Part shown: positions 44,141 through 60,947 of the stretch, in pieces | How the letters are laid out: each line of letters starts with the position of its first letter | Numbering within the stretch: position 1 is the first letter of the stretch | Assembly: GCF_000971255.1 (NCBI RefSeq) | Contig: NZ_BBMC01000005.1 | Span: forward strand, 186,001-250,000 | Direction: 5' to 3' | From: Demequina rhizosphaerae | GTDB lineage: Bacteria > Actinomycetota > Actinomycetes > Actinomycetales > Demequinaceae | Length of the DNA stretch: 64,000 nucleotides | The notes under the pieces: generated by a model | The model's input: only the letters and a program-made list of their open reading frames with translations | Databases searched by the model: none | What the model was told of the DNA's origin: nothing | Position numbers and translations under genes: made by a program

Positions 44141-45943
44141 TCAGCCGTCCAGCGCCTCCCGGACGCGGGCGACCACGGCGGCCGCCGCATCGTCCACCGG
44201 CAGCGCCTCGCTCGTGCCCGCCGCGCGGACCTTGAGCTCGACGGTGCCCTCCGCGAGGCCGCGGCCGACCACGAGGATGAACGGGGCGCCGATGAGCTCG
44301 GCGTCCTTGAACTTCACGCCGGGCGAGACCTTGAAGCGGTCGTCGTAGCAGACCTCGACGCCCGCGGCCTCGAGCTCCGCGGCCAGGCCGCCGGCGGCCT
44401 CGAAGACCGCCGCGTCCTTGCCTGTCGCGACCACGTGCACCTGGTACGGCGCGACCTGGATGGGCCAGGACAGGCCCAGCTCGTCGTGGTTGTTCTCCGC
44501 GAGCAGCGCGACGGCGCGGGTGACGCCGATGCCGTACGAGCCCATGGTGACGACCTGCTGCTTGCCGTTCTCGTCGAGCACCCGCAGGTCGAGCGCCTCG
44601 GCGTACTTGCGGCCCAGCTGGAAGATGTGGCCGATCTCGACGCCGCGCGCGAGCTCGAGCGGACCCGAGCCGTCGGGGGCCTCGTCGCCGTCGCGCACGT
44701 CGGCGGCCTCGATGGTGCCGTCGCCCACGAAGTCGCGGCCCATGACGAGGTCGAAGACGTGCTTGCCGTGCTCGTTGGCGCCGGTGATCCAGCGGGTGCC
44801 GGGGACGATGCGCGGGTCGAGCATGTACGGGATGGTCGCGTCGTCCTCGGAGAGGAACGCCACCTCCGCCGGGCGGGCCTGCGGGCCGAGCACGCCGGGG
44901 CCGATGTAGCCCTTGACCAGCTCGGGGTGGGTCTTGAGGTCGTCCTCGTTCGCGGCTTCGACCGTCGCCGGGGCGAGCGCCGCCTCGAGGCGGGTCATGT
45001 CGACGTCGCGGTCGCCGGGCACGCCGATGACGAGCAGCCCGCGCTCGCCCTCGGGGTTGGTCGCGGCGATCACCACGTTCTTGAGGGTGTCCGCGGCGGT
45101 CCAGGCGCGGTCCTCGCGCGGGTGGTGGGCGTTGGCGGAGGCGACCAGCGTGTCGATCGTCGGGGTGTCGGGAGTGTCCTCGACGTGCGCGGCGGGCGCA
45201 TCGGCCCAGTCGATCGCGGCGGGCGCCGGGGTGGTGACGGCCTCGACGTTGGCGGCGTAGCCGCCGGGCGAGCGCACGAAGGTGTCCTCGCCGACCTCGG
45301 TGGGCGACAGGAACTCCTCCGACCTCGAGCCGCCCATCGCGCCCGACTGCGCCTGCACGATCACGTACTCGAGGCCCAGGCGGTCGAAGATGCGGATGTA
45401 GGCCGCGCGCTGCGCCGCGTACGACGCGTCGAGGCCCTCGTCCGAGATGTCGAAGCTGTACGAGTCCTTCATGATGAACTCGCGGCCGCGCAGCAGGCCC
45501 GCACGGGGACGCGCCTCGTCGCGGTACTTCGTCTGGATCTGGTAGATCGTCAGCGGCAGGTCCTTGTAGCTGCTGTAGAGGTCCTTGACCAGCAGCGTGA
45601 ACATCTCCTCGTGCGTGGGCGCGAGCAGGTAGTCGCCGCCCTTGCGGTCGTGGAGGCGGAAGAGGTTGGGGCCGTACTCGGTCCAGCGGCCGGTCGCCTC
45701 GTAGGGCTCGCGCGGCAGCAGCGCCGGGAAGTGCACCTCCTGGCCGCCGGCGGCGTCCATCTCCTCGCGGACGATCGCCTCGACCTTCGCGAGCACCTTG
45801 AGGCCCAGCGGCAGCCAGGTGTAGATGCCGGGGGCGGCGCGGCGGATGTAGCCGGCGCGGACGAGCAGCTGGTGCGACGCGACCTCGGCGTCGGCGGGGT
45901 TCTCGCGCAGGGTGCGCAGGAAGAGCGTGGACATGCGAAGCAT
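44141..45943 (-). CDS. proS: Prolyl-tRNA synthetase
   Basis: A 600-residue class II synthetase of the bacterial type with an editing insertion. Motif 1 to 3 regions are visible ([39 protein letters not shown], then [16 protein letters not shown]), with the INS editing domain between about 225 and 385 and the C-terminal anticodon-binding domain. ATG at 45943, alternative ATG at 45934. It lies 52 bp downstream of the first SLH gene; in related genomes the neighbour is the GNAT gene now found beyond the SLH cluster. Confidence 0.97.
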
Positions 45944-45995
45944 GGGGTCAAGGGTATCGGGACCGGGGCACGATGCGGTGCGGGTATCCGTCCTG

Positions 45996-47393
45996 TCACC
46001 AGGGCGTGCGCACCACGAAGCCCCCGACCCAGTGCTCGTAGCGGTAGAGCACGGTCGCAAGCTGGCGGCGCAGCGTCGGCTCGTTCGGCCGGAAGGTCCC
46101 GTCGGAGAAGCCCGAGACGATGTCGAGCTGCCCGAGCCACGCGATCGCGCGCGAGCCGCCGTCACCGCATTCGACGTCGGTGAACGAGTAGGCAGGGCAT
46201 CCGCCATCAGGCAAGGGACCAGGAACGGTGAGGACCGCCGGTCGACCCGCATACCTGTACAGCAGCTTGGCGACCATGCGCCTCGTGACGGTGCGGTTCG
46301 GCTTGAAGCTCCCGTCGTCGTAGCCCGAGGCGATCCCCGTCTGGTGGAGCCAGACCATCGCACGGTACCCGCCGTCGCCGGGCTCGATGTCGGTGAACGG
46401 AGACTCCTCGGGAAGGTCGACCTCGGGGCGACCGGCGTGCCGGTACAGCAGCTTCGCGAGGTTGCGGCGGGTCACCGTTCCTCGCGGTTCGAAGGTGCCG
46501 TCGTCGAAGCCGGACACGATCCCGACCCCGCCGGCCCAGTTGATCGCGTGGAAGCCCTTGGATGCCCCGCGCACGTCCGTGAAGCAGGTGAACGGGATCC
46601 ACTCGTCAGGGTGGTCGTTGCGCAGGCCCGCGACCGACACCGCGCGGGTGTGCGTGCCCGTCGGTGCCGCGGCGCCGCCGTACCAGCAGTCCTCACCCTC
46701 GTAGGCGGTCCAGTCCTCGCCTGTCACGAGCTCCTCGCGGGCGGCGCGCAGCAGGTACGGCTCATCCGTCTCGAGCTCGTCGAAGACCAGCGTGGTTCCC
46801 GGCGAGGCGCAGTCGACGGCGGCGGGCACGGACTCCGTCGCTCCCTCGAATCCCGCCCACGGGTACGCCGCGACGCACACGATCTCGGCGACCCCCGGCA
46901 CGGGACGCAGCGCAGGCAGCGCGACATCGACACGCAGCACGGTGAACGGCCGGGTGGTCGAGGTCGGCGCCGTCGCCTCGTCGTCGTCGACGCCGACGAC
47001 GAGGCGCGCGGGGACGGCGACGACGCCGCCGTCGGTCACCCACGATCCTGCAAGGCCTGGAATGCCCGTCACCCTCACGCGGTACTCGCCGACCGGGACG
47101 CCGTCGAACCGGTAGGCGCCGTCCTCGACGGCGGTCGACGCCACGTACTCCCCGCTCCATCTGTAGAGGTCGGCGCGGCCGTCCTCGACCACGCCGATGA
47201 TGAGGCGAGCGGCACCCGTGATGCTGGCGGCGCCGGAGAGGGCGATCCCCCCGCTCGGCGCGTCGACCGCGACCTCGACAGCCGTGTCGGTCGCAGGAGC
47301 GTCCTCGGCCGCCGCTGCCGGCGCGCCGATCGCGATCGCCACTGCGCTCAGGACGACGGCGAGCACGGCCGTGTGGCGTGAGGCTCGTGTCAT
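45996..47393 (-). CDS. Secreted S-layer-homology protein (SLH1)
   Basis: A 465-residue exported protein: signal peptide (to about residue 29), a small beta domain ([19 protein letters not shown]), an unnamed module with paired cysteines (CVAAY, later DC, then [10 protein letters not shown] and DWTAY), and three SLH repeats from about residue 275 to the end. The SLH repeats carry SGFDDGTF and [11 protein letters not shown]-type motifs and presumably bind a cell-wall polymer. The central module is shared with SLH2 and SLH3. It starts 24 bp after the SLH2 stop, so the two are probably co-transcribed. Confidence 0.88.
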
Positions 47394-47417
47394 GGGTGTC
47401 TCTCCTCGAGGCTCGGA

Positions 47418-50400
47418 TCAGCCGAGCGTGTAGCGGTAGAGGAACGTCGCGATCTGGCGACGGATGACGTCCTGCTCCGGACGGAACGTGCCGTCCGAGA
47501 AGCCCGAGGCGATCCCCGTCTCGGCCATCCATGCCATCGCGCGGTAGCCGCCCGATCGCGGGGTGAGGTCCTTGTAGGGCGATCTCGCCGGCACCTCGAA
47601 GTCCGGCCGGCCCGCGAAGCGGTAGAGGAACTTCGCGAGGTTACGGCGCGAGACCTCGTCGTTCGGCCGGAAGGAGCCGTCGTCGAAGCCCGACGCGATG
47701 CCCGCCTGGTAGAGCCACACCATCGCGCGGTAGCCGCCGTCGCTCGGCGACACGTCGGCGAAGGGCGACTCCTCGGGCAGGTCGACGTCCGGGCGCCCCG
47801 CGTAGCGGTAGAGCAGCTTCGCGAGGTTGCGCCGCGTCACGGACTCGCGCGGACGGAAGGTGCCGTCCGAGTAGCCGGAGGCGATGTGCGTGCCGCCCAG
47901 CCACGAGATCTCGGAGAACGCCTTCGACCCGCCGTTCACGTCGGTGTAGTAGGCCATGCCGAGCCAGTACCCGCTCATGTCCTCACCGACCGAGATGACG
48001 CGGGCCTTGCCGCTCCACGGCCCATCGGCGTTGCCGAGCCAGTAGTCGGGTCCCGTGTACGAGGTCCAGTCGGTGTCGACCGTGAGCTCCTCCGGCACGA
48101 CCCGAAGCAGATACGCGCGACCGTCCTGGAGGTTGGGCAGGATGCGCACCAGCTCCGGATCCCCGCAATCGACGACGACCGGCGTGCTCGTGGACTCGGA
48201 TTCGAAGCGATCAGCACGATAGGCGGCGATGCACAGCCAGCGGTCGTCCCACTCCGCCTTGCCCGCGGCGCTGACGTAGAGCGGGGCCATGTACTCGAGC
48301 GGCACACGGCCGGCGGTGAGGGTGACCGGGGTGGACTCCGACACCACGAACCTGCCGGGCGCGTGGTTCCCGATCACTTCTCCGTACGTCGCCCACCGAG
48401 GGCCGATGTCGGTTCCGCCGCTGACGAGCACCTTGTACTCGCCCTCCGGCACACCCTCGAACGAGTACGCGCCGCTCTCGACCGCCGTGGTGCCGAGCGG
48501 CTCGCCGGCCCACGAGTAGAGGGTTGCCGTGGTGCCGCCGCCCCACACGGTCCCGGTGATCGTCGCGCCGAGGTCGAGCACGAAGTCCGCTTCCGCGGTT
48601 CCTCCTTCGAACACGACCGGGGAGCCTGCCCCGTCGTCGCCGAAGTAGCCCTCCACCGCCCCGTCGAAGCCGGCGAAGCGGAGCCAGTACGCGCCGGGCT
48701 CGACGATCTCCAGGTGGAACCGCTCATCTGCTCCCACGCACGACTCGGCGGCGAGGGCTCCGGAATCGGCATAGGCCGTGACGCAGCCTCCCGTCACGAC
48801 GCCGCCGCGCGCGAGGACGTGACCGCGCAGTCCCGTGCCATCGCTCAGGGTGTACGCGATCGCGACGGTCTCGCCGGCCGCCACCCAGGTCGTCTCCGCG
48901 TCGCCTCGCACCAGACCGCCCCAGTACTGGTCAGGTGCCCCGTCGAAGCCGAGGAACGCCAGCGCGAATCGGCCGTCGTACATCGGCACCCGGTACGTAC
49001 CGCCGTCTCCCGCACAGTCCCGACCGGCCTCGACCCACTCGTCGGTGTACGCGACGAGGCAGCCGCCCGCGGCCGGCAGCCCTCCAGGACCCGCCAGCGC
49101 GACGGACACGGCTCCCGCCGCCCTCAGGTCGAGGTCGATCGTCCTCACCTCGCCGGTCGCCGCCGAGATGGGGTAGGCGTCGCTTCCCGTCCACAGCCAC
49201 GCATCGGCTCCGACGGCACGGAAGAGCAGCCTCGCGCCGGTGTCCGGCACCGGCACGGAGTAGCCGGGCTCGCCGGGAGCCGTGCAGCCGGTCGCGAAGA
49301 CCTCGTCGCCGACGTGGACGTCGACGCAGGCGGAGGTGGCTCCCGGCACGGCCGTGTAGTCGATCGCACCTGCGACCGTGCCGTACGCGCCGATCTCGTA
49401 TGCCCGCGCCACGTCGCGGCCCTGATCGATCGTGACGAAGCTCATCTGCGTCGTGTCGTTCGCGGTCGAGAAGCCCGTGAAACGAAGGTGCGAGTTGCTC
49501 TTGAGGTCGCGACGGACGTCGAGAACGTAGCCGTCCGCTCCGTCGCAGTCGCGGGCGACCTCCTCGGACCCGGACTTGAGAGCCACACACCCGTCCGCGA
49601 CCGGCTCGCCCTCGCTCGTCACGTCGACCGTGAAGCGGCCACCGAATCGGATGTCGACCTCGGTCGTAGTTCCCGTGGTCGTCGCGACCTGGACCGAGTC
49701 CGTGAGCCCCGTGTGCGTCGACAGGCCCCACCACCCCTCCCAGTAGCCGCAGACCGGGTCGGCCGATTCGGCCGTCACGCAGAGCGCATACGTGGCCTCG
49801 GGGAGGCCGTCGATCGTGAACTCGTCCCCGATGTCGCCGCACGCCTCACCCTCGACGATGTAGGTGCCGGCGCCCGGACCCACCGACATGAACGCCCGCA
49901 CGCAGGCCCGCTCCCCCACGACGGTGTCGGGGGCGACGATGGTGCCGTGGATCGCTGAGTCGGGTGCGAACTGCGCGTCGACACCGGTACGGAGCTCGGT
50001 GGGCACGCTCGCGATCTGCGTCGATGTGACGGATGCCTGGCCGGCCTCCGCCGGGACGAACCTCAGCAGCGCCGATCCGGACTCGGCGATGCTCCAGTCG
50101 CGGATCACGTACCTCCCGTCCGTGCCGACCGTCACCTCCTCGCGCAGCGGCTTCGGGCTGGAGTGCCAGTAGTAGCGCTGCACGGTCGCACCTGCCGCGG
50201 GTGTCCCATCCGACCCGAGGACCGTCCCGGTGGTCGCCCCGTACGGCAGCAGCTCGACCGCGACCGCGGTCGTCGCGTCCGCGACGACGTCGAACGAGTC
50301 GGCGTCGGCGTGCGCGTCCTCCCACGTCGACCACTGGTCGGGGGCGTCTGTGAAGCCGGTGTACTCCAGCCGGTAGGCGCCGGGCGCGAGCCCGTCGATC

Positions 50401-50639
50401 ACGTAGGCGCCGTCGCCGGACTCGCAGACGGTCGCGACCGCGGTCTCCGCGTCTTCGTCCGTGTACGCCGCGACGCAACCGCCGACCGCATCGTCCCCGG
50501 TCTCCCACAACGTGGCCGTGGCCTCGATGGATCCGGTCGGCTCGACCGCGCCGGCGGCCGACGGCAGCCCCACCCCCGCCACGATCGCGGTGAGCAGCGC
50601 GGCGATCGCCCGCGCGCGTCGTCGGGTCGTCTGCGGCAT
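47418..50639 (-). CDS. Large secreted S-layer-homology protein with Cys-paired beta repeats (SLH2)
   Basis: A 1073-residue exported protein. After the signal peptide (cleavage near residue 30) come about seven beta-sandwich-like repeats of roughly 100 residues, each with a C-[VIL]-x-A[YF]-like strand, a second Cys 10-25 residues later and often a YxLxFxGF segment, resembling carboxypeptidase-regulatory-like domains. The last repeat is the module shared with SLH1 and SLH3 (WLCIAAY, VDC, YLLRVVPEEL). Three SLH repeats fill about residues 900-1073. The ATG at 50639 gives a convincing signal peptide. It is the longest of the four and probably forms a rod-like surface stalk. Confidence 0.87.
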   Translation of the reverse strand: MPQTTRRRARAIAALLTAIVAGVGLPSAAGAVEPTGSIEATATLWETGDDAVGGCVAAYTDEDAETAVATVCESGDGAYVIDGLAPGAYRLEYTGFTDAPDQWSTWEDAHADADSFDVVADATTAVAVELLPYGATTGTVLGSDGTPAAGATVQRYYWHSSPKPLREEVTVGTDGRYVIRDWSIAESGSALLRFVPAEAGQASVTSTQIASVPTELRTGVDAQFAPDSAIHGTIVAPDTVVGERACVRAFMSVGPGAGTYIVEGEACGDIGDEFTIDGLPEATYALCVTAESADPVCGYWEGWWGLSTHTGLTDSVQVATTTGTTTEVDIRFGGRFTVDVTSEGEPVADGCVALKSGSEEVARDCDGADGYVLDVRRDLKSNSHLRFTGFSTANDTTQMSFVTIDQGRDVARAYEIGAYGTVAGAIDYTAVPGATSACVDVHVGDEVFATGCTAPGEPGYSVPVPDTGARLLFRAVGADAWLWTGSDAYPISAATGEVRTIDLDLRAAGAVSVALAGPGGLPAAGGCLVAYTDEWVEAGRDCAGDGGTYRVPMYDGRFALAFLGFDGAPDQYWGGLVRGDAETTWVAAGETVAIAYTLSDGTGLRGHVLARGGVVTGGCVTAYADSGALAAESCVGADERFHLEIVEPGAYWLRFAGFDGAVEGYFGDDGAGSPVVFEGGTAEADFVLDLGATITGTVWGGGTTATLYSWAGEPLGTTAVESGAYSFEGVPEGEYKVLVSGGTDIGPRWATYGEVIGNHAPGRFVVSESTPVTLTAGRVPLEYMAPLYVSAAGKAEWDDRWLCIAAYRADRFESESTSTPVVVDCGDPELVRILPNLQDGRAYLLRVVPEELTVDTDWTSYTGPDYWLGNADGPWSGKARVISVGEDMSGYWLGMAYYTDVNGGSKAFSEISWLGGTHIASGYSDGTFRPRESVTRRNLAKLLYRYAGRPDVDLPEESPFADVSPSDGGYRAMVWLYQAGIASGFDDGSFRPNDEVSRRNLAKFLYRFAGRPDFEVPARSPYKDLTPRSGGYRAMAWMAETGIASGFSDGTFRPEQDVIRRQIATFLYRYTLG

Positions 50640-50686
50640 CCGTTCCCCCCCTGCCGCGACCGCCCTGTGCGGCCGCCGGTGCGCGG

Positions 50687-50697
50687 CGCATCGTCCC
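50687..50697 (-). repeat. Intergenic copy of the GGGACGATGCG motif
   Basis: Exact copy in the leader of the SLH2 gene, 47 bp before its start codon. Confidence 0.7.
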
Positions 50698-50712
50698 GCC
50701 GCACGTGCCCGC

Positions 50713-50740
50713 ACGCTACCAGGAGACGTCACTCTGTGAC
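50713..50740 (-). promoter_or_regulatory. Candidate SLH2 promoter with an inverted repeat
   Basis: Reading the minus strand, TAGCGT (50718 down to 50713) is a plausible actinobacterial -10 box. Just upstream, in the -35 region and spacer, is GTCAC-AGA-GTGAC (50740 down to 50728), a 5-bp inverted repeat with a 3-bp spacer that could be an operator. No clear TTGACA box is present. Confidence 0.4.
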
Positions 50741-50809
50741 ATTGCCTGCTCGGACCCCTACCAGGAAGGACACGCCGACATTCGGGACGGAAGGGACGGC
50801 GGACGCACG

Positions 50810-50843
50810 ACGGCCGCCGGTCCCCGCGGGGACCGGCGGCCGT
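50810..50843 (-). terminator. Hairpin terminator after SLH3
   Basis: A perfect 16-bp inverted repeat (50810-50825 with 50828-50843), 14 bp past the SLH3 stop and ahead of the SLH2 promoter region. Confidence 0.8.
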
Positions 50844-50857
50844 GGTGTGCGCCGCGC

Positions 50858-52243
50858 CTACAGGTACGGGAAGCGGTAGAGGAACGTCGCCATCTGGCGG
50901 CGGATGACGTCCTGGTTCGGACGGATGGTGCCGTCCGAGAAGCCGGATGCGATCTCCTCGTCGACCATGAACTTCAGCGCGCGGTAGCCGCCCGCGGTCT
51001 TCTTCACGTCCTTGAAGGGCGACTTCTCGTCCATGTCGACGTCGGGGCGCCCCGCGTAGCGGTAGAGGAACTTCGCCATGTTCTGACGGCTCACGGTCTT
51101 GTTCGGCTTGAACGAGCCGTCGGCGTAGCCCGACGCGATCTCCGCCTCGTAGAGCCACACCATCGCGCGATAGCCGCCGTCGCCGGGCTCGAGGTCCGTG
51201 AAGGGCGACTCCTCCGGCATCTCGAAGTCCGGGCGGCCGGCGTAGCGGTAGAGCAGCTTGGCCATGTTGCGGCGGGTCACCGACTCGCGCGGACGGAACG
51301 TGTCGTCGTCGTAGCCCGAGGCGATCTGGAACGCGGCGAGCCAGGAGATCTCGTCGAAGGCCTTCGCGCCGCCCTTGACGTCGCCGAAGTAGGCGACGAA
51401 GTGCCAGTCGGGGCCGGTGGTGGTGTCCGTGATGAAGACGAGCGCTCCGGGCGTCCACGGGTCGGCGACGTTCCCGAACCAGAACTCGTCACCCTCGTAG
51501 TCCATCCACTCGTCGGCCGTGGCGAGCTCGGCCGGCACGATGCGGAGGAGGTACTCGCTCGACTTGTCGAGCTCGTCGATGAAGGTGGGGTTGCCCTCGA
51601 CGGCGCAGTCCGTCGACACGGGCGCCGAGATCGAGGCGTCCCAGAAGTCCTCGGCGTCGTACGCGGCGAGGCAGAGCCGATCGGTGCTCCACGAGCCCTT
51701 GCCCGCGACGGTGAAGTACACCCAGGGCTCGTCGCCGAGCGTCGCCTCGTCCGCGACGATCTCCGCCGGGGACTCGGGCGACACGACGAACTTCGCCGGG
51801 CCCAGGCCGTCGGAGCCGTCGAGCTCAGCCCACTGCGAGCCGTGGTCGTCGTACGTGCCGACGAGCACCTTGTACTCGCCCTCCGCCACGTCGGCGAAGG
51901 TGTACGCGCCCTCGACGATGTCGACGTCGCCCAGGTACTCGCCGTCCCAGCTGAACAGCTCGGCCCAGCCCTCGGCCGGCTCGCCGTCGACCACGACGGT
52001 GCCCGTGATCGACACGGTCTCGGTGACGGACAGCGTGCGCGGCGCGGTGGCCGAGGCGCCGGTCTCGGCGCCGTAGCACCAGACGTCGGCGAGGTGCTCG
52101 TGGCCCTCGGTGACGGCGCTGCACGATGCGCCGGTCACGGTGCCGGCCGCGGCGCCCGCGGCCGCGGGGAGCCCCGCGGCAGCCAGGAGCGCCAGGACCG
52201 TGGCGGCGGCGCCGCGCGCGAGCAGGGACGAAGACGACTGCAT
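50858..52243 (-). CDS. Secreted S-layer-homology protein (SLH3)
   Basis: A 461-residue exported protein: signal peptide ending near AGAAAG, a beta domain (AELFSWDGEYLGDVDIVEGAYTF) like that in SLH1 and SLH2, the shared Cys-paired module (RLCLAAY, TDC, YLLRIVPAEL, EWMDYEG), and three SLH repeats from about residue 285 to the C-terminus. It has its own terminator, and the 254-bp region upstream suggests its own promoter (TAGCGT at 52325 down to 52320 is a candidate -10). Confidence 0.88.
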   Translation of the reverse strand: MQSSSSLLARGAAATVLALLAAAGLPAAAGAAAGTVTGASCSAVTEGHEHLADVWCYGAETGASATAPRTLSVTETVSITGTVVVDGEPAEGWAELFSWDGEYLGDVDIVEGAYTFADVAEGEYKVLVGTYDDHGSQWAELDGSDGLGPAKFVVSPESPAEIVADEATLGDEPWVYFTVAGKGSWSTDRLCLAAYDAEDFWDASISAPVSTDCAVEGNPTFIDELDKSSEYLLRIVPAELATADEWMDYEGDEFWFGNVADPWTPGALVFITDTTTGPDWHFVAYFGDVKGGAKAFDEISWLAAFQIASGYDDDTFRPRESVTRRNMAKLLYRYAGRPDFEMPEESPFTDLEPGDGGYRAMVWLYEAEIASGYADGSFKPNKTVSRQNMAKFLYRYAGRPDVDMDEKSPFKDVKKTAGGYRALKFMVDEEIASGFSDGTIRPNQDVIRRQMATFLYRFPYL

Positions 52244-52441
52244 GGATGACCCCCATGACGGGGCCGATCCACACGTCCCCGCCGCGCGCCGAGCCTCCGA
52301 TGGCGGGCGCCTCGCGGGCACGCTAGCAGGCGCGATGGGTGCGGCCCGGGTCACGACACGCGATGGTTTCGTCACACCGTGCGCTTGTGCACGGGGAGGT
52401 CGGGCGGCGCTGCGGAGAGGCCCACCCTCCCCCGGAGACGG

Positions 52442-52481
52442 CTCGACCGCCGCCGGCCCGGTGGGGCCGACGGCGGTCGAG
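52442..52481 (-). terminator. Hairpin terminator after SLH4
   Basis: A perfect 11-bp inverted repeat (52442-52452 with 52471-52481) with extra GGCCC/GGGCC pairing in the loop, 16 bp past the SLH4 stop. Confidence 0.78.
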
Positions 52482-52497
52482 GGTCAGCGGTGCTCCG

Positions 52498-54534
52498 CTA
52501 CAGGCTCGAGAACCGGTAGATGAAGGTCGCCATCTGGCGGCGGATCGTGTCCTGACCCGGACGGAAGGTGCCGTCCGAGAAGCCGGTGGCGATCCCCGTC
52601 TCGTCCAGCCACGCCATCGCGCGGTAGCCGCCGGTCGAGGTCGTGACGTCCGAGAACGGCGAGGTGGCGGGCACCTCGAAGGCCGGACGGTCGGCGAAGC
52701 GGTAGAGGAACTTCGCCATGTTGCGACGCGTCACGGTCTTGTTCGGCTGGAACGTGCCGTCCGAGTAGCCCGAGGCGATCTCCGCCTCGTGCAGCCACAC
52801 CATGGCGCGGTAGCCGCCGTCACCCTGCTCGATGTCCGAGAAGGGCGAGGTCTCCGGGAGCTCGAAGTCCGGGCGACCGGCGAGGCGGTACAGGAACTTC
52901 GCCATGTTGCGACGCGTCACGGACTCGTAGGGACGGAAGGTGCGGTCCTCGAAGCCCGAGGCGATGCCCTGCTCGTGGAGCCAGGTGATCTCGGCGAACG
53001 CCTTCGCGCCCAGCGGCACGTCGGTGAAGTACACGGTCGGGACGCAGCCCTCGGTCGGGCGCTCGGCGTTGATGAGCACGTTGTCGACCGGCAGGGCGTC
53101 GAAGCCGTTCGTCACGATCCAGCCGTAGCGGTTGCCGCCCACGGTGCCGTTGATCGTGTCCTTGCCGTTCGAGCGGGTCCAGGTCTTGAGCACGTCGCCC
53201 GAGGCGTCCGCGACCGAGATGTCGACCGAGAGCACGCCGTCCACGCTCGAGAAGTCGTGGCGCACGGTGTACCAGCCGGACTCGGTGATCGTCAGCGTGT
53301 CACCGGTCAGCGGCGCGACGTCGACGGCCTTGAAGCCCGCGTTGTTCGACGCGCCAAGCGTCCACGAGCCCTCGCCCGCCGACTGCGCGTGAAGGATGAA
53401 GTCGCGACGGTGGTTGCCGTCGGTGCCGTTGGTGGCCACCGACCAGTCGAACTGGTTCAGCGTGCCACCGGTCGACACCGCAGCGTCGAGGTAGAAGTCG
53501 GCGCTGGTGAACCAGCCGCCCGCCGGGAACGCGTCGGAGTAGCCGCCGAACTTCGTCACCTGGTACTCGTAGTCGTCGTCGTCCAGGTTCTGGCCAGCGA
53601 CCGCGTAGTAGCAGCCCGCAGCGGCGGTGATGCCGGTGGTGCCGTTCTTGACCGGCGTCACGCCGGAGACAGCCTCGAAGCTGGCCTCGGTCTCGAAGCC
53701 GTACACGGCCGCGTCGATCGCCGGCACCGCGGACGCCTTGACGGTGAGCATCGGCGAGTAGGGGGACCACTCGCTCGTCGAGCGAAGGACGTCGATCGGG
53801 TCGCCGTCGTACATCGCGGCGTACGACGAGTCCACGACGATCGAGTCGCCGTCGACGTCCGCGCCGATGGCGGGCGCGTCCTGCGCGAGGCTGACGTTCA
53901 GGCTGTCGTACGGGCCGCGGTCCGCGATCTCGCCGAAGCGGCTCGTCGGGTACTTCACGGTGACGATGACCTCGTCCGGGAGCGCGACGGTCGAGTCGAA
54001 GGGCACGGTGGCCGTGAAGGCGACGCCGTTGTGGCAGGTGCCCGTCTCGGAGTCGTACCACTTCGTCGGAGTCGTCGTGCAGTTCACGGCGTCGGCCGAC
54101 GGTCGGAACGGCACGGCCACGGTCTCGGTCGCGGTCGCGAGCAGGTCGCCCGGCTCGCCCGCGGCGTCGACGCCGTAGACGTTGACCGTCACGGGGTGGT
54201 CGAAGGTGGCGCCGGGCGTCGTGACGCAGTCCGCGCCCGAGCCGGTCTCGCACGACCAGTTGGTCATGCCGACCTCGACGGAGTCGAGCAGCCGCTCGTC
54301 GCCGCCGAGGACGATGCGATCGCCGAGCTCACGCGTCGAGGTGGCGGTGAAGCCGATGCTCGGGTGCGACGGAGCCGTCGCGGCGTTGTCGAAGACGACG
54401 GCGCTGGTGGCCGGCGCCTCGGTGTCGTCGGACGTCGCGCCGGCCGCCGTGGCGGTCAGGACGCTCGCGCCCAGCGCCGCGAGCATCGTGCCCGCGACGG
54501 CGCGCGAGGCGCGCCAGGAATGGGTGTTCCCCAT
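52498..54534 (-). CDS. Secreted S-layer-homology protein with a different N-terminal region (SLH4)
   Basis: A 678-residue exported protein: signal peptide to about residue 33, a beta-rich domain with paired cysteines (about 40-190, SIGFTAT, NWSCETG and GTCHNGVAF), a middle region resembling bacterial surface beta-sandwich domains (about 270-490, AAGCYYAVAG, WTLGASNNAG, GWYTVRHDF), and three SLH repeats from about 505. It does not contain the YLLR module of SLH1-3. It is monocistronic: a terminator follows and 158 bp with an inverted repeat precede it. Confidence 0.87.
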   Translation of the reverse strand: MGNTHSWRASRAVAGTMLAALGASVLTATAAGATSDDTEAPATSAVVFDNAATAPSHPSIGFTATSTRELGDRIVLGGDERLLDSVEVGMTNWSCETGSGADCVTTPGATFDHPVTVNVYGVDAAGEPGDLLATATETVAVPFRPSADAVNCTTTPTKWYDSETGTCHNGVAFTATVPFDSTVALPDEVIVTVKYPTSRFGEIADRGPYDSLNVSLAQDAPAIGADVDGDSIVVDSSYAAMYDGDPIDVLRSTSEWSPYSPMLTVKASAVPAIDAAVYGFETEASFEAVSGVTPVKNGTTGITAAAGCYYAVAGQNLDDDDYEYQVTKFGGYSDAFPAGGWFTSADFYLDAAVSTGGTLNQFDWSVATNGTDGNHRRDFILHAQSAGEGSWTLGASNNAGFKAVDVAPLTGDTLTITESGWYTVRHDFSSVDGVLSVDISVADASGDVLKTWTRSNGKDTINGTVGGNRYGWIVTNGFDALPVDNVLINAERPTEGCVPTVYFTDVPLGAKAFAEITWLHEQGIASGFEDRTFRPYESVTRRNMAKFLYRLAGRPDFELPETSPFSDIEQGDGGYRAMVWLHEAEIASGYSDGTFQPNKTVTRRNMAKFLYRFADRPAFEVPATSPFSDVTTSTGGYRAMAWLDETGIATGFSDGTFRPGQDTIRRQMATFIYRFSSL

Positions 54535-54652
54535 GAGATCCCCTCAGATCGATGCGCGCGCACGCACGATCGGGGTTCCCGTGTGCGTCGCTGCGCGCGA
54601 GTAGCGAGAGAAAGTCTAGGGAGGCCCACCGACAGTAATCGCTCCAAAGTGC

Positions 54653-54669
54653 CGATAACGTCGTTACCG
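54653..54669. promoter_or_regulatory. Inverted repeat upstream of SLH4
   Basis: TAACG-T-CGTTA (54656-54666) is a 5-bp inverted repeat with one central base, and flanking CG/CG bases extend the symmetry to 54653-54669. It lies about 120 bp before the SLH4 start, upstream of a TAGACT sequence (54618 down to 54613) that could be a -10 box, so it may be an operator. Confidence 0.35.
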
Positions 54670-54692
54670 TGACGAACGCCACACGGCGGGCG

Positions 54693-55609
54693 TCACATCA
54701 TGACGGTCGCGAACGTCCCGACCTCGCGGAAGCCCACCGCGTCGTACGCGCGGATGGCCACCGGGTTGAAGTCGTTGACGTAGAGGCTCACCGTCGGGGC
54801 GAGCTGCGCGCGCACCGCGTCGATCACGGCGCCGAGCCCCGCGCGGGCGAGCCCGCGTCCGCGCAGGTCCGGATGCACCCACACGCCCTGGAGCTGCGCC
54901 ACTCCCCCGCCCAGCGCGCCCACCTCGGCCTTGAACACCACCTGTCGTCGGCCGTCGACGGTGCCCATCTGCACGTACGAGCGTCCGGCGCGCACGAGGT
55001 AGCGCAGGCGCTCCTCGTAGCCGGCACGCCCGTGGCGCATCGGGTCGTAGCCCACCTCGCCGATGAACATGTGGACGCACGCGGGCAGCAGCAGGTCGTA
55101 GTCGTCGAGGTCCGCGCGCCTCACGGCCTCGAGGTCGAGGCCCGAGGCGTCGATGCCGGCGACGCGGCGCGGCTCGTGGTCGATCGCCATCGACACCTGC
55201 CGGGCCCGCACCTCGCGGGCGGGCCCCCACCAGGGCTCGACGCGGCCCCACAGGTCGAGCGTGACGCCGGCCGGGCCCACGAGCGCCGCGGGGCGCGTGA
55301 GGCGCGCGATCGCCGCCGCCGCGACCTCGGCGCGCAGGGAGTCCTCGTCCTCGCCGTCGCCATCGGGCAGCACGGGCGAGAGGTTGGCGCCGTTCCACAC
55401 GAGGCCCACGAGGGTCGAGTGCAGGCCCGAGCGCCGGCGGACGCCCCACAGGGAGCCCGTCATGATGCCCGAGGCCCGGGCCGTCTCGAGGTGCATGAGC
55501 GGCACCACGTGCGCGACGGGGTCCCGGCGCGCGAGCGCGATGGCCGTGTCGAGATCACGCCGCTGCAGGGGCGCCAGCGTGTGCTGGGAGCGCCTGAGCA
55601 GCGAGTCCG

Positions 55610-55613
<4 letters not shown>
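54693..55613 (-). CDS. GNAT acetyltransferase with DUF4081-type N-terminus
   Basis: A 306-residue protein: an N-terminal region of the kind called DUF4081 ([17 protein letters not shown]) and a C-terminal GNAT domain with the acetyl-CoA motif [20 protein letters not shown] and closing [18 protein letters not shown]. This gene is commonly found next to ispG in actinobacteria. ATG at 55613 overlaps the ispG stop (ATGA). The substrate is unknown. Confidence 0.88.
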
Positions 55614-56764
<1,151 letters not shown>

Positions 56765-56801
56765 GTTGTCAGTATCTCCCAAGGTCGGTGCGGTACCGCC
56801 G

Positions 56802-58115
56802 TCACACCACGCTGACGGGCGCGACGATGTCCGCATAGATGAGGATGACGCCCATGGCGAGAAGCAGGGCGAAGACGCCGTAGGCGAGGGGCATCATGCG
56901 GGCCACGTCGACGGGCGCCGGCCGCGGCAGGCCGCGCAGGCGCGCCCAGCCGTTCTTGATGCCCTGCCAGAAGGCGGAGGCGATGTGCCCACCGTCCAGG
57001 GGGACGAGCGGGATCATGTTGAAGGCGAAGAGCGCGAGGTTGAGGCTGCCCAGGAGCATGAGCATGTCGGTCACCTTGTCGGCGATCGAGTAGCCCTGGA
57101 CGTCCGCGCTGGAGATCTCGCCGGCGACGCGGCCGACGCCCACGAGCCCCATGACGGAGTCCGTGGTGCGCTCCTCGAGCCCGACCGACGCGCGCGCCAC
57201 GTGGTAGACGTTCTCCGGCAGGTGCCAGATGACGTCCGCCGTCGCTCCGAGCACGTAGCCCGTGTAGTCGAGGCCCGCGCCGATCCCCTGCCGCTGCGTC
57301 TCGGTGGCCGGGGCGATGCCCATGTAGCCGACCTCCTCGGTGACGACCGCGCCGTCGGCGTCGGTCACCACCGCGCCGGAGTCGTCGTACACGGCGCGCT
57401 CGCGCAGCGCGGGCGTGAGGGGGATCTCGACGGCGTCGCCGTCGCGCTGGACGGTGAGGACGACCTCCTCGCCGGGCCGAGCCGCGACGTAGTCGGTGAA
57501 GGTCTCCCAGTCGGAGACCGGCGTGCCGTCGACCGCGGTGACGGTGTCGCCCGCCTCGATGCCCGCCTGGGAGGCAGGCGAGGCCGGGTCATCCGGAGCG
57601 CAGTCCGACGCGCCCGCGGCGGGCACGCACGCCGTCACCTGCGACACGGTGAGCGTCGGGTGGCCGGGGGTGCCGACGAGGAAGAGGATGCCGGTGAAGA
57701 TCAGCACGGCGATGACGAGGTTGACGAAGGGGCCGCCGAACATCACGATCGCCTTGCGCCACCAGGAGAGGTGGTAGAAGGCGCGGTGGTCCTCGCCCGG
57801 CTGGATCTCCTCGACGGAGGCCTCGCGCGTGTCCGCGATGAGCTGGGCGACGCGGCCGGTGCCGCTCACGGGCTTGACCGCCTCGGCCGGCGGGATCATC
57901 CCGACGAGCTTGACGTAGCCGCCCAGCGGGATGGCCTTGACGCCGTACTCGGTCTCCTTGCCGCGCCGCGACCACAGGGTGGGCCCGAAGCCCACGAAGT
58001 ACTCGCTCACCCGCACGCCGAACTTCTTCGCAGGGATCATGTGCCCGAGCTCGTGGAGCGCGATCGAGACGAGCAGCCCCACGAGCAGGACGATCCACCC
58101 GATGACCTCAGCCAT
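56802..58115 (-). CDS. rip: Site-2 (M50) intramembrane metalloprotease, RseP/Rip1 type
   Basis: A 437-residue membrane protease. The zinc motif HELGH is at residues 21-25 in the first helix, a PDZ domain lies at about 165-270, and the second active-site motif [13 protein letters not shown] is near 385 with the catalytic aspartate. It cleaves membrane anchors, typically anti-sigma factors, within the bilayer. It is flanked by dxr and ispG, the usual actinobacterial order. ATG at 58115, 5 bp from the dxr stop. Confidence 0.93.
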
Positions 58116-58120
58116 GTCTC

Positions 58121-59275
58121 CTACCTTCTCACTCGTGCGATCGCGTCCCGTGCGTGGGCGCGCGCCCACGCCTCCGCGCGGTCGACCTCGTCCAGGGTGA
58201 CCTCCGCGGGGGCGCTGTACTCCTCGACAACGCGCCGGACGGTGTCCACGATCCCGAGGAACGGCAGCGCGCCGTCGACGAAGGCCTGCACGCACTCCTC
58301 GTTGGCGGCGTTGAACACGGCCGGGTGCAGGGGCGATGCGGCCATCGCCGCGCGCATGAGGCGGATCGCGGGGAACGCCTCCTCGTCGAGCGGCTCGAAG
58401 GTCCACGCCTGCGCGTGCGTCCAGTCGAGCCGCGGCGCGACGTCGGGCAGCCGCTCGGGCCAGCTGAGGCCGAGGGCGATGGGGAGCCGCATGTCCGGCG
58501 GCGAGGCCTGCGCGATGGTGGCGCCGTCGACGAACTCGACCATCGAATGGACGATGGACTGCGGGTGCACGACCACGTCGATGCGGTCCATCGGGATGTC
58601 GAACAGCAGGTGCGCCTCGGCCACCTCGAGGGCCTTGTTCACCATCGACGCGGAGTTGATGGTGACGACCGGCCCCATGTCCCAGTTGGGGTGCGCGAGC
58701 GCGTCGGCGGGCGTGACGGCCGCGAGCGACGCGCGGCTGCGGCCCCGGAAGGCGCCGCCCGACGCGGTCACCACGAGGCGGCGGACCTCGCCACGGCTGC
58801 CGGAGCGCAGCGACTGCGCGAGCGCGGAGTGCTCGGAGTCGACGGGCACGATCTGGTCCTCGCGCCGCTTCGCGGCGTGCACGAGCGCGCCTCCGGCGAC
58901 GAGGGACTCCTTGTTGGCGAGCGCGAGCGTCGAGCCGGACTCGAGCGCCGCGAGGGTGGGCCGCAGGCCCACCGAGCCCGTCATGCCGTTGAGCACGACG
59001 TCGGCGCCGATGCGGGCGGCCTCGACCACCGCATCGGCCCCACCCCTCACCTCGATGCCCGGGAGGGCCTCGGCGAGCGCGGGCACGACGTCCTCGCGCG
59101 CGACGGCCACGTAGCGGGGACGATGCGCGCGGGCCTGGGCGACGATCGCGTCGGGGTCGGAGCCGCCGGCGGCGAGCGCGACGACCTCGAGGCGGTCGGG
59201 GTGTCGCGACACGACGTCGAGCGCCTGGGTGCCGATCGATCCGGTCGACCCCAGCAGGGAGACGGTGCGGGTCAT
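58121..59275 (-). CDS. dxr: 1-deoxy-D-xylulose 5-phosphate reductoisomerase
   Basis: A 384-residue NADPH-dependent enzyme of the MEP pathway. The nucleotide-binding motif is LLGSTGSIGTQALDVV at residues 7-22; the active site includes NKESLVAGG, VDSEHSALAQSL and the ATASGGAF-like loop. ATG at 59275 overlaps the upstream stop (ATGA). Confidence 0.95.
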   Translation of the reverse strand: MTRTVSLLGSTGSIGTQALDVVSRHPDRLEVVALAAGGSDPDAIVAQARAHRPRYVAVAREDVVPALAEALPGIEVRGGADAVVEAARIGADVVLNGMTGSVGLRPTLAALESGSTLALANKESLVAGGALVHAAKRREDQIVPVDSEHSALAQSLRSGSRGEVRRLVVTASGGAFRGRSRASLAAVTPADALAHPNWDMGPVVTINSASMVNKALEVAEAHLLFDIPMDRIDVVVHPQSIVHSMVEFVDGATIAQASPPDMRLPIALGLSWPERLPDVAPRLDWTHAQAWTFEPLDEEAFPAIRLMRAAMAASPLHPAVFNAANEECVQAFVDGALPFLGIVDTVRRVVEEYSAPAEVTLDEVDRAEAWARAHARDAIARVRR

Positions 59276-59835
59276 CCCTCGGTGACGCCGAGCAGGATGT
59301 CGACCATGCGCGCGAGGAAGGCGTCGACGGTGGCCTCGTCGTACGCGCGCGAGCCGTGGGCGGTGCGGAAGGTCGCGCCGCGCACCTCGTCGGCGGTCAG
59401 CGGCGCGCCGCGGTCGAAGAACGCGGTCACGCGCGTGAGGAGGTCGTCGACGTCGCTCGCGCGGTAGCCGGAGGAGACGGCGGAGGGGTGGGCGAAGCGC
59501 TCGCCCGCCGGGCGGCGCAGGCGCGGGTAGAGCGTCTGGGCGCGCTGCGCGAGCTCCTGCATCCACGCGTCCTGGCCGTTGGAGCGGACGTAGGCCTCGC
59601 GCTGGCGGCCCACGAAGGCGGCCTCGAGGCGGTCGAGCGCGGAGTCGACCGCGCCGGTGTCGTAGCCGCCGTGCTTGAGGTCGAACGCGGTGCGGCGCAC
59701 ATCGAGCGGCGCGAGCTCGGCGTCGGGCTCCGAGGGGCGCTCGTACGCGGCACGCGCCTTGTCGAAGAACTCCTCGACCTGGGTCGGGTGGTACCCGAGC
59801 TTGAGCGAGCCCACCTTGGGGAACAGGGTCGTCAT
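59272..59835 (-). CDS. DivIVA-repeat protein
   Basis: A 187-residue protein with four copies of the short DivI1A-like motif, in which an F- or T-rich strand is followed by a glycine-tyrosine turn and an amphipathic helix with VD or VE: PKVGSLKLGYHPTQVEEFF, FDLKHGGYDTGAVDSAL, SSGYRASDVDDLL and FRTAHGSRAYDEATVDAFL. It lacks the long coiled coil of polar DivIVA. The ATG at 59835 overlaps the rlmN stop (TGATG) and the stop overlaps dxr. Membrane-curvature or polar targeting is suggested by the family but not shown. Confidence 0.78.
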   Translation of the reverse strand: MTTLFPKVGSLKLGYHPTQVEEFFDKARAAYERPSEPDAELAPLDVRRTAFDLKHGGYDTGAVDSALDRLEAAFVGRQREAYVRSNGQDAWMQELAQRAQTLYPRLRRPAGERFAHPSAVSSGYRASDVDDLLTRVTAFFDRGAPLTADEVRGATFRTAHGSRAYDEATVDAFLARMVDILLGVTEG

Positions 59836-60947
59836 CACCTCTCCTTGATGGCCAGCTGGCCGCACGCGCCGTCGATGTCGCTGCCACGAGTATCCCTGAT
59901 GGTGGTGGGAATCCCGTGCATCCGGAGGATGCGCACGAACTCCTGCTCGACCTTCGGGTCCGACGCGGTCCACTTGGATCCCGGGGTCGGGTTGAGCGGG
60001 ATCGGGTTGATGTGCACCCACCCGTCGCCGCGCGCGTTGAGCTTCTTCGCGAGCAGCTCCGCGCGGTGGGCGTGGTCGTTGATGTCGCGGATGAGCGCGT
60101 ACTCGATGCTCACGCGGCGGCCGGTCGCGTCGAAGTAGCGGCGCGCGGCGTCCAGCGCCTCGTCCACCTTCCAGCGGGCGTTGATCGGCACGAGCTCGTC
60201 GCGCAGCTCGTCGTCCGGGGCGTGGAGGCTGAGCGCGAGGGTCACGGGGATGCCCTCGGACGCGAGCCGGTCGATGCCGGTGACGAGGCCGACCGTCGAG
60301 ACGGTGACGTGGCGCGCTGACAGCCCGAAGCCCTCCGGCGGCGGGCTGGTGAGCGCGCGCACCGCGGTGATGACGGCCGCGTAGTTCGCGAGCGGCTCGC
60401 CCATGCCCATGAACACGACGTTGGACAGGCGGACGGGGTCGCCGCCGAGCTCGCCGTCGCGCGCCTGGCGGGCAGCGAGCCGCACCTGCTCGACGATCTC
60501 GCCCGCGGAGAGGTTGCGGGTGAGGCCCATCTGCCCGGTCGCGCAGAACGGGCACGCCATGCCGCAGCCGGCCTGGCTGGTGACGCACAGCGTGGCGCGG
60601 TCCGGGTACTTCATCAGCACGGACTCGACCTTGGCGTGGTCGATGAGGTTCCACAGGGTCTTCACGGTGGCGCCGTCGTCGGCCGTCAGCTGGGTCACCT
60701 TGGTGAGCAGCGGCGGGAACAGCTCGCCGACGAGCGTGTCGCGCGCGGCGGCCGGGAGGTCCGTCATGTCGCCCGCGTCGACCGTCAGGTGGTCGTAGTA
60801 GTGCGTGGCCAGCTGCTTGGCGCGGAACGCGGGCTGGCCCAGCTGCTTGACCGCGTCGGACCGCTCGGCGGCGTCGAGGTCGGCGAAGTGCCGCGGCGGC
60901 TTGCCCCGGCGCGGCTGGAGCATGGGCAGGGTCGGAAGCGTGGTCAT
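59835..60947 (-). CDS. rlmN: 23S rRNA/tRNA (adenine-C2) methyltransferase RlmN
   Basis: A 370-residue radical-SAM enzyme. The cluster-binding CGMACPFC has cysteines at 128, 132 and 135; the methylated cysteine is the one in [10 protein letters not shown] near the C-terminus. It methylates A2503 of 23S rRNA and A37 of some tRNAs. ATG at 60947 overlaps the cdsA stop (ATGA). Confidence 0.96.

Follow-up and report, generated by a model that had tools for sequence, protein, structure and literature searches.

The window analysed here is a stretch of 64,000 nucleotides from the actinobacterium Demequina rhizosphaerae (assembly GCF_000971255.1, contig NZ_BBMC01000005.1, positions 186,001 to 250,000), in which four genes for S-layer homology (SLH) proteins, SLH1 to SLH4, lie in tandem between positions 45996 and 54534 of the window. 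One of them, SLH2, encodes a protein composed of a signal peptide, as judged by eye, nine tandem transthyretin/carboxypeptidase-regulatory-like domains (R1 to R9) and three SLH domains. All 16 cysteines of SLH2 are located in the stalk formed by R1 to R9, and the SLH part has none. A first cysteine pair is found in seven of the nine domains (R1, R3, R4, R5, R6, R7 and R9), a second pair (C287/C297) is confined to R3, and R2 and R8 are free of cysteine. The stalk was cut into domains at the repeated first strand, which gives the following layout:

47418..50639, minus strand: SLH2 gene, 1073 amino acids, ATG start at 50639, stop at 47418 (translation)
50547..50639, minus strand: signal peptide, residues 1-31 (judged by eye from the sequence)
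50241..50546, minus strand: R1, residues 32-133, Cys 55/72 (domain cutting and profile)
49959..50240, minus strand: R2, residues 134-227, no Cys, CarboxypepD_reg match at 137-182 (Pfam and domain cutting)
49641..49958, minus strand: R3, residues 228-333, Cys 246/267 and second pair 287/297 (domain cutting and profile)
49383..49640, minus strand: R4, residues 334-419, Cys 351/365 (domain cutting)
49116..49382, minus strand: R5, residues 420-508, Cys 438/452 (domain cutting)
48837..49115, minus strand: R6, residues 509-601, Cys 527/542, modelled alone (domain cutting and model)
48567..48836, minus strand: R7, residues 602-691, Cys 619/634 (domain cutting)
48273..48566, minus strand: R8, residues 692-789, no Cys, SdrD_B match at 702-745 (Pfam and domain cutting)
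47976..48272, minus strand: R9, residues 790-888, Cys 803/825, the weakest domain assignment (domain cutting and profile)
47421..47948, minus strand: three SLH domains, residues from about 898 to 1073, no Cys (Pfam PF00395, three stretches)

A preliminary description of the locus, made from the sequence, had placed a stalk of about seven degenerate repeats, each with its own cysteine pair, at 48300-50560. Repeats and pairs are real, but the domains number nine, with two that lack cysteine and one that carries two pairs. The stalk extends to about 47976, so that the range missed R9; LCIAAY, cited there as an example of the repeated motif, contains C803 (codon 48231-48233), which, together with its partner C825 (48165-48167), falls outside that range. 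Self-comparison of the repeats, recommended in the same description, succeeded for part of the stalk. In pairwise alignments scored against shuffled sequences, R1, R6 and R7 resemble one another at z 10.0-11.7 and R1 resembles R8 at z 9.7, R4 reaches z 4.2-6.2 with R1, R6 and R7, and R2 is weakly related to R6 and R7 (z 3.1-4.3). The assignment of R3, R5 and R9, for which pairwise z never exceeds 2.6, rests instead on the profile, where R9 is marginal (E 0.045) and its counterparts in SLH3 and in the relative L007 score 2e-8 and 7e-6, respectively.

The carboxypeptidase-regulatory-like sandwiches proposed in the preliminary description are borne out by both family profiles and structure. Across the whole of SLH2, CarboxypepD_reg (PF13620) passes its gathering cut-off with two stretches (34.7 vs 32.3 bits), as do SdrD_B (PF17210; 30.9 vs 29.7 bits, best stretch in R8) and SLH (PF00395; 96.7 vs 20.8 bits, three stretches). 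An NCBIfam scan of the four SLH proteins and of the MauE and DsbA-like proteins discussed below gave no family over cut-off. The AlphaFold model of R6, built from an alignment of 44 rows taken from the window and from loci L036-L038, has a predicted local distance difference test score (pLDDT) of 95. Its top row in VIA-align is 5aq0_B, a transthyretin-like domain from human carboxypeptidase D (Z 10.2; root-mean-square deviation 2.0 over 80 residues), and further carboxypeptidase domains, as well as domains of pilins and S-layer proteins, come within 1 Z unit of it and count as ties (BcpA, 9.8; SlaB complex, 9.6). Foldseek with the same model returned nothing at E <= 0.001, the best match being BcpA at 1.3e-3. 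SLH2 shares fold and family score with the CarboxypepD_reg/transthyretin-like domain (PF13620; 5aq0), from which it differs by its nine-fold tandem array and may differ by the hairpin cysteine pair in seven of the domains. It likewise resembles the CNA-B/SdrD B-type stalks (PF17210; BcpA 3kpt, SpaA 3htl and SdrD 10ps, with VIA-align Z 8.2-9.8 against the R6 model) in that tandem sandwiches make up the stalk of a surface protein. Many pilins use intramolecular isopeptide bonds, and the hallmark of CNA-B/SdrD_B stalks is an isopeptide bond or a calcium site; SLH2 differs in carrying cysteine pairs and C-terminal SLH domains.

The position of the cysteines within the sandwich was examined in the models, where pairing was judged by strand register in place of the S-S distance. 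In the domain model of R6, strand 19-23 starts with C527 and C542 comes directly after strand 29-33; by these strand limits, the two should face each other across the base of a single hairpin. In the model of full-length SLH2, the first pairs are in hairpin register within two residues in 7 of 7 cases, compared with 656 of 7541 residue pairs (8.7%) at spacings of 14-22.

The evolution of the pairs points in the same direction. L007, a full-length relative with 39% identity over the stalk, keeps 16 of the 16 cysteines of SLH2. One search of the named genomes (A2) yielded no relatives and another (A3) yielded three; stalks of the SLH2 type are present in Demequina phytophila (L036), D. silvatica (L037) and a Demequina metagenome-assembled genome (L038), the domains of which are identical to those of the same-genus loci L014, L010 and L009, respectively. 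With a profile built up from the repeats, 147 domains were collected, of which 108 remained once three duplicate proteins had been removed; six of these rows were dropped for a gap in a cysteine column, and the set does not include R9 of SLH2. Among the 102 related domains scored, 73 have both cysteines, 29 have neither and none has a single one (Fisher 4e-26, with relatedness ignored). At further loci, from Demequina and from other families, the corresponding counts are 13, 118 and 0 (131 of 140 domains scored with a one-column tolerance, nine having been dropped for gaps; the L140 rows duplicate the L029 rows of the first set). One domain of L009, for example, has the pair, and its aligned counterparts in L010 and L014 lack both cysteines. 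On a FastTree phylogeny of 101 domains, from which the cysteine columns were excluded, the pair switches state eight times, always jointly, against a mean of 25.5 switches under shuffling. Where a third cysteine occurs (ten domains), a fourth follows 8-11 residues later, by eye. The five long proteins contain 16 (SLH2), 16 (L007), 24 (L009), 22 (L010) and 24 (L014) cysteines, the last count including one within the first 32 and one within the last 180 residues of the frame. A very long repeat-chain relative, L129 (genome G025; frame of 2154 amino acids), lacks the pair in four of its seven scored domains and has tryptophan at or near the position of the second cysteine.

Joint presence and absence would likewise result if the cysteines formed a two-cysteine metal site or served as free redox thiols, forming no disulfide. 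We consider this quite improbable: the alignment consensus has no conserved histidine and no further majority cysteine, SLH2 has a signal peptide, and the genome encodes a DsbA-like oxidase. The abundance of cysteines and their confinement to the stalk could also be taken to mean that disulfides join neighbouring domains or molecules and thereby cross-link the surface layer. However, the two cysteines of a domain are gained and lost together and sit across one hairpin, and the cysteine-free R2 and R8 are interspersed among the cysteine-bearing domains, which leaves little room for bonds of this kind.

Several observations weigh against disulfides within the domains. The model of full-length SLH2 is weak (pLDDT 67; predicted template modelling score 0.35), with parts of R3, R8 and R9 below pLDDT 50 and the cysteines of R9 in blocks of about 51-62, and C287/C297 of R3 fails the hairpin register test. 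The profile with which the domains were found includes the cysteine columns; because the repeats are related, the 102 scored domains are not independent; and, when branches with support below 0.9 are collapsed, only one joint change of the pair remains certain. Nevertheless, given the retention of all cysteines in L007, the joint presence or absence of the pair and the hairpin register of every first pair, we regard disulfides in SLH2 as very likely on the basis of sequence and models. The earlier proposal of one disulfide per cysteine-bearing domain is upheld in this form, with low confidence for the pair of R9, and SLH2 is best explained as a disulfide-pinned stalk. SLH2 would accordingly be a secreted surface protein that is held to the wall by its three C-terminal SLH domains and the nine sandwiches of which form an outward rod. 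Seven sandwiches would carry one disulfide across the base of a two-strand hairpin, and R3 a second, and each bond would stiffen its sandwich in a manner comparable to the isopeptide bonds of CNA-B pilins. Any adhesive role of SLH2 is something that we infer.

Disulfides on this scale were anticipated in the preliminary description to need a Dsb-like system, and a search of the genome for DsbA and VKOR was suggested. This expectation finds support: the host genome, which is 98.4% complete, encodes one MdbA/DsbA-type oxidase beside a MauE-family membrane protein. Searches for VKOR and DsbB produced 0 matches in it, whereas 14 named genomes that served as controls included 3 and 6, respectively, with a match. 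The oxidase, the single Thioredoxin_4 match in the genome, shows a hydrophobic stretch at its N-terminus, as judged by eye, together with a CPIC motif, and exceeds the cut-offs of both PF13462 Thioredoxin_4 (47.9 vs 23.2 bits) and PF01323 DSBA (31.2 vs 25.6 bits). Its nearest solved structures are a group of disulfide oxidoreductases (4jr6, 4k6x, 4jr4 and 4ihu), presumably the M. tuberculosis Rv2969c entries, and three MdbA entries. The adjacent protein matches MauE (PF07291; 90.6 vs 27 bits) as well as DoxX and contains the motif IDCGCF, which is present in 11 of 11 same-genus MauE loci read; a sequence search of solved structures with this protein gave no match. In the namesake MauE/MauD pair of methylamine dehydrogenase, too, the gene for a membrane protein of the DoxX family accompanies one for a thioredoxin-type protein with CxxC.

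This arrangement is nearly universal in the host family. Among its 47 genomes, a DsbA relative is found in 46, MauE in 44, VKOR in one (G034) and DsbB in none. Of the 44 MauE-bearing genomes, 43 have 89-187 bases between the MauE and DsbA-like matches; in the exception, G045, the two are on separate contigs. The only VKOR of the family (G034, contig 1, 2325733-2327043) is encoded beside an extra DsbA-like gene; G034 keeps the MauE-DsbA pair elsewhere in the genome, and its VKOR looks like an added second system. The group to which the host belongs seems to have almost entirely lost VKOR, the enzyme that normally regenerates disulfide bonds, and to use a different membrane protein in its place.

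We then considered the host order, in which VKOR was found in 227 of 297 genomes, leaving 70 VKOR-negative ones (the E-values and tables were transferred manually to a script; the totals 227, 297 and 204 agree with the tallies of the tool). A strong MauE match (E <= 1e-22) is present in 61/70 VKOR-negative vs 22/227 VKOR-positive genomes and, outside the host family, in 39/47 vs 21/226. The contrast is much weaker at the loose threshold of E <= 0.001 (66/70 vs 138/227). At all 39 VKOR-negative loci with strong MauE outside the family, which span seven families (f2, f5, f10, f12, f15, f17 and f20), a CxC-bearing MauE and its nearest DsbA-like match share a strand and are separated by 38-334 bases, with CxxC in the best DsbA-like protein; 11 of these loci have a second DsbA-like match. 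The MauE motif at the 39 loci is I-[D/E/N/K/Q]-C-G-C-[F/Y], and takes the form IDCGCF at 31. In 20 VKOR-positive genomes hand-picked among the weaker MauE matches, none has a DsbA-like neighbour. The 23 MauE proteins without such a neighbour have, by eye, C[SAN]CF in 17 cases, CHCF in two and CGCF in four.

On sequence grounds, the leading candidate for the missing re-oxidant of the DsbA-like oxidase is MauE, which most likely re-oxidises the DsbA that would pin SLH2. The bonds of SLH2 would be introduced by the MdbA/DsbA-type oxidase that the genome encodes, and this enzyme would be re-oxidised through the I-D-C-G-C-F motif of the adjacent MauE-family protein rather than by VKOR. Some of the evidence runs counter to this proposal. 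Among VKOR-positive genomes outside the family with a MauE match of <= 1e-24, MauE lies beside DsbA (23-187 bases, same strand) in 14 of 17 examined; the MauE of L097 has IDCGCF and yet no DsbA neighbour; and nine of the 70 VKOR-negative genomes are without strong MauE, three of the nine (G084, G099 and G219) being 62-76% complete. As the VKOR-negative genomes with strong MauE belong to eight families of the order, the independent events are few. Furthermore, in Streptomyces, sviF, mslE and mslF knock-outs still yield disulfide-bonded lasso peptides (PMC9266682).

The last observation bears on an alternative under which MauE is not the re-oxidant: small oxidants or some other partner would re-oxidise the DsbA-like protein, and MauE would reduce or otherwise serve another thioredoxin-like protein. 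The retention of disulfides in these DoxX/thioredoxin knock-outs is in its favour, as are the CxCF-type MauE proteins without a DsbA-like neighbour in VKOR-positive genomes (20/20 of the hand-picked and 3/17 of the stronger matches) and the persistence of MauE in G034, the sole family genome with VKOR. Set against these are the position of MauE by the DsbA gene throughout nearly all MauE-bearing family genomes and all 39 VKOR-negative loci outside the family, and the absence of VKOR that accompanies this linkage. We view the alternative as a serious contender that nonetheless falls short of an even chance. For re-oxidation by MauE in its broad form, the chances seem evenly balanced; it would hold that MauE with the motif I-[D/E/N/K/Q]-C-G-C-[F/Y] has taken over the re-oxidation of MdbA/DsbA from VKOR, both in Demequina and in those members of at least seven further families of the order that have no VKOR, and that SLH2-like surface proteins, with 8-12 possible disulfides, depend on it. 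To the more specific explanation for D. rhizosphaerae, namely a disulfide-pinned SLH2 rod, an MdbA/DsbA-type oxidase and re-oxidation by MauE, we assign a probability of roughly three in four.

The known systems closest to this one share some of its features and differ in others. The host oxidase matches MdbA structures, a feature in common with the MdbA/DsbA-VKOR pathway of actinobacteria such as A. oris (PMC9974433), but a MauE-family neighbour is present and no VKOR or DsbB was found; for C. diphtheriae, the same source describes MdbA re-oxidation as unresolved and VKOR as not found. The lasso-peptide proteins SviE/SviF and HumE/HumF combine a DoxX-family membrane protein with a CxxC thioredoxin-type protein, as do the host MauE and DsbA (PMC9266682, PMC7168211), and such a pair has been proposed for lasso-peptide disulfides (PMC7168211); the MauE/DsbA pair differs in being present in nearly every family genome and in its association with VKOR absence. 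In the literature searched, no title among the matches listed concerned MauE replacing VKOR, no paper combined Demequina with S-layer homology, and the papers that mention MauE together with DsbA or with VKOR have titles on other subjects.

The remaining genes of the SLH tandem are the following:

45996..47393, minus strand: SLH1, SLH protein with R8/R9-type domains, 6 Cys (Pfam, profile)
50858..52375, minus strand: SLH3, SLH protein with R8/R9-type domains (Pfam, profile)
52498..54534, minus strand: SLH4, fourth SLH protein of the tandem (Pfam)

SLH1 differs from SLH2 in that two of its cysteines (399 and 409) are within its SLH part. Upstream of the SLH genes are a GNAT (DUF4081) gene, identified with Pfam, and open reading frames that resemble ispG, rseP and dxr by eye, and downstream is a gene for a class II prolyl-type tRNA synthetase (Pfam), all on the minus strand; within this region (44141-59887), the SLH genes appear as though inserted in a housekeeping cluster. 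Genomes of the family contain anything from zero (12 of 47) to 17 (G022) matches to SLH2, most of which concern the SLH part, so that the SLH surface set looks highly variable. The ligand in SLH anchoring is a wall polymer that a CsaB-type enzyme pyruvylates. The genome that encodes SLH2 has three PS_pyruv_trans matches (contigs C14 and C7), a count in which CsaB and other such enzymes are not distinguished, and these polysaccharide pyruvyl transferases could be the source of the wall ligand for the SLH domains.

The isopeptide-stiffened stalks of Gram-positive bacteria seem to have a disulfide-based counterpart in the stalk of SLH2, the many paired cysteines of which make SLH2 a good reporter substrate. 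If the proposed role of MauE is true, this protein would represent a candidate partner type for those actinobacteria in which MdbA lacks a known re-oxidant, and the linked MauE would be a concrete, experimentally accessible candidate for MdbA re-oxidation in VKOR-less actinobacteria.

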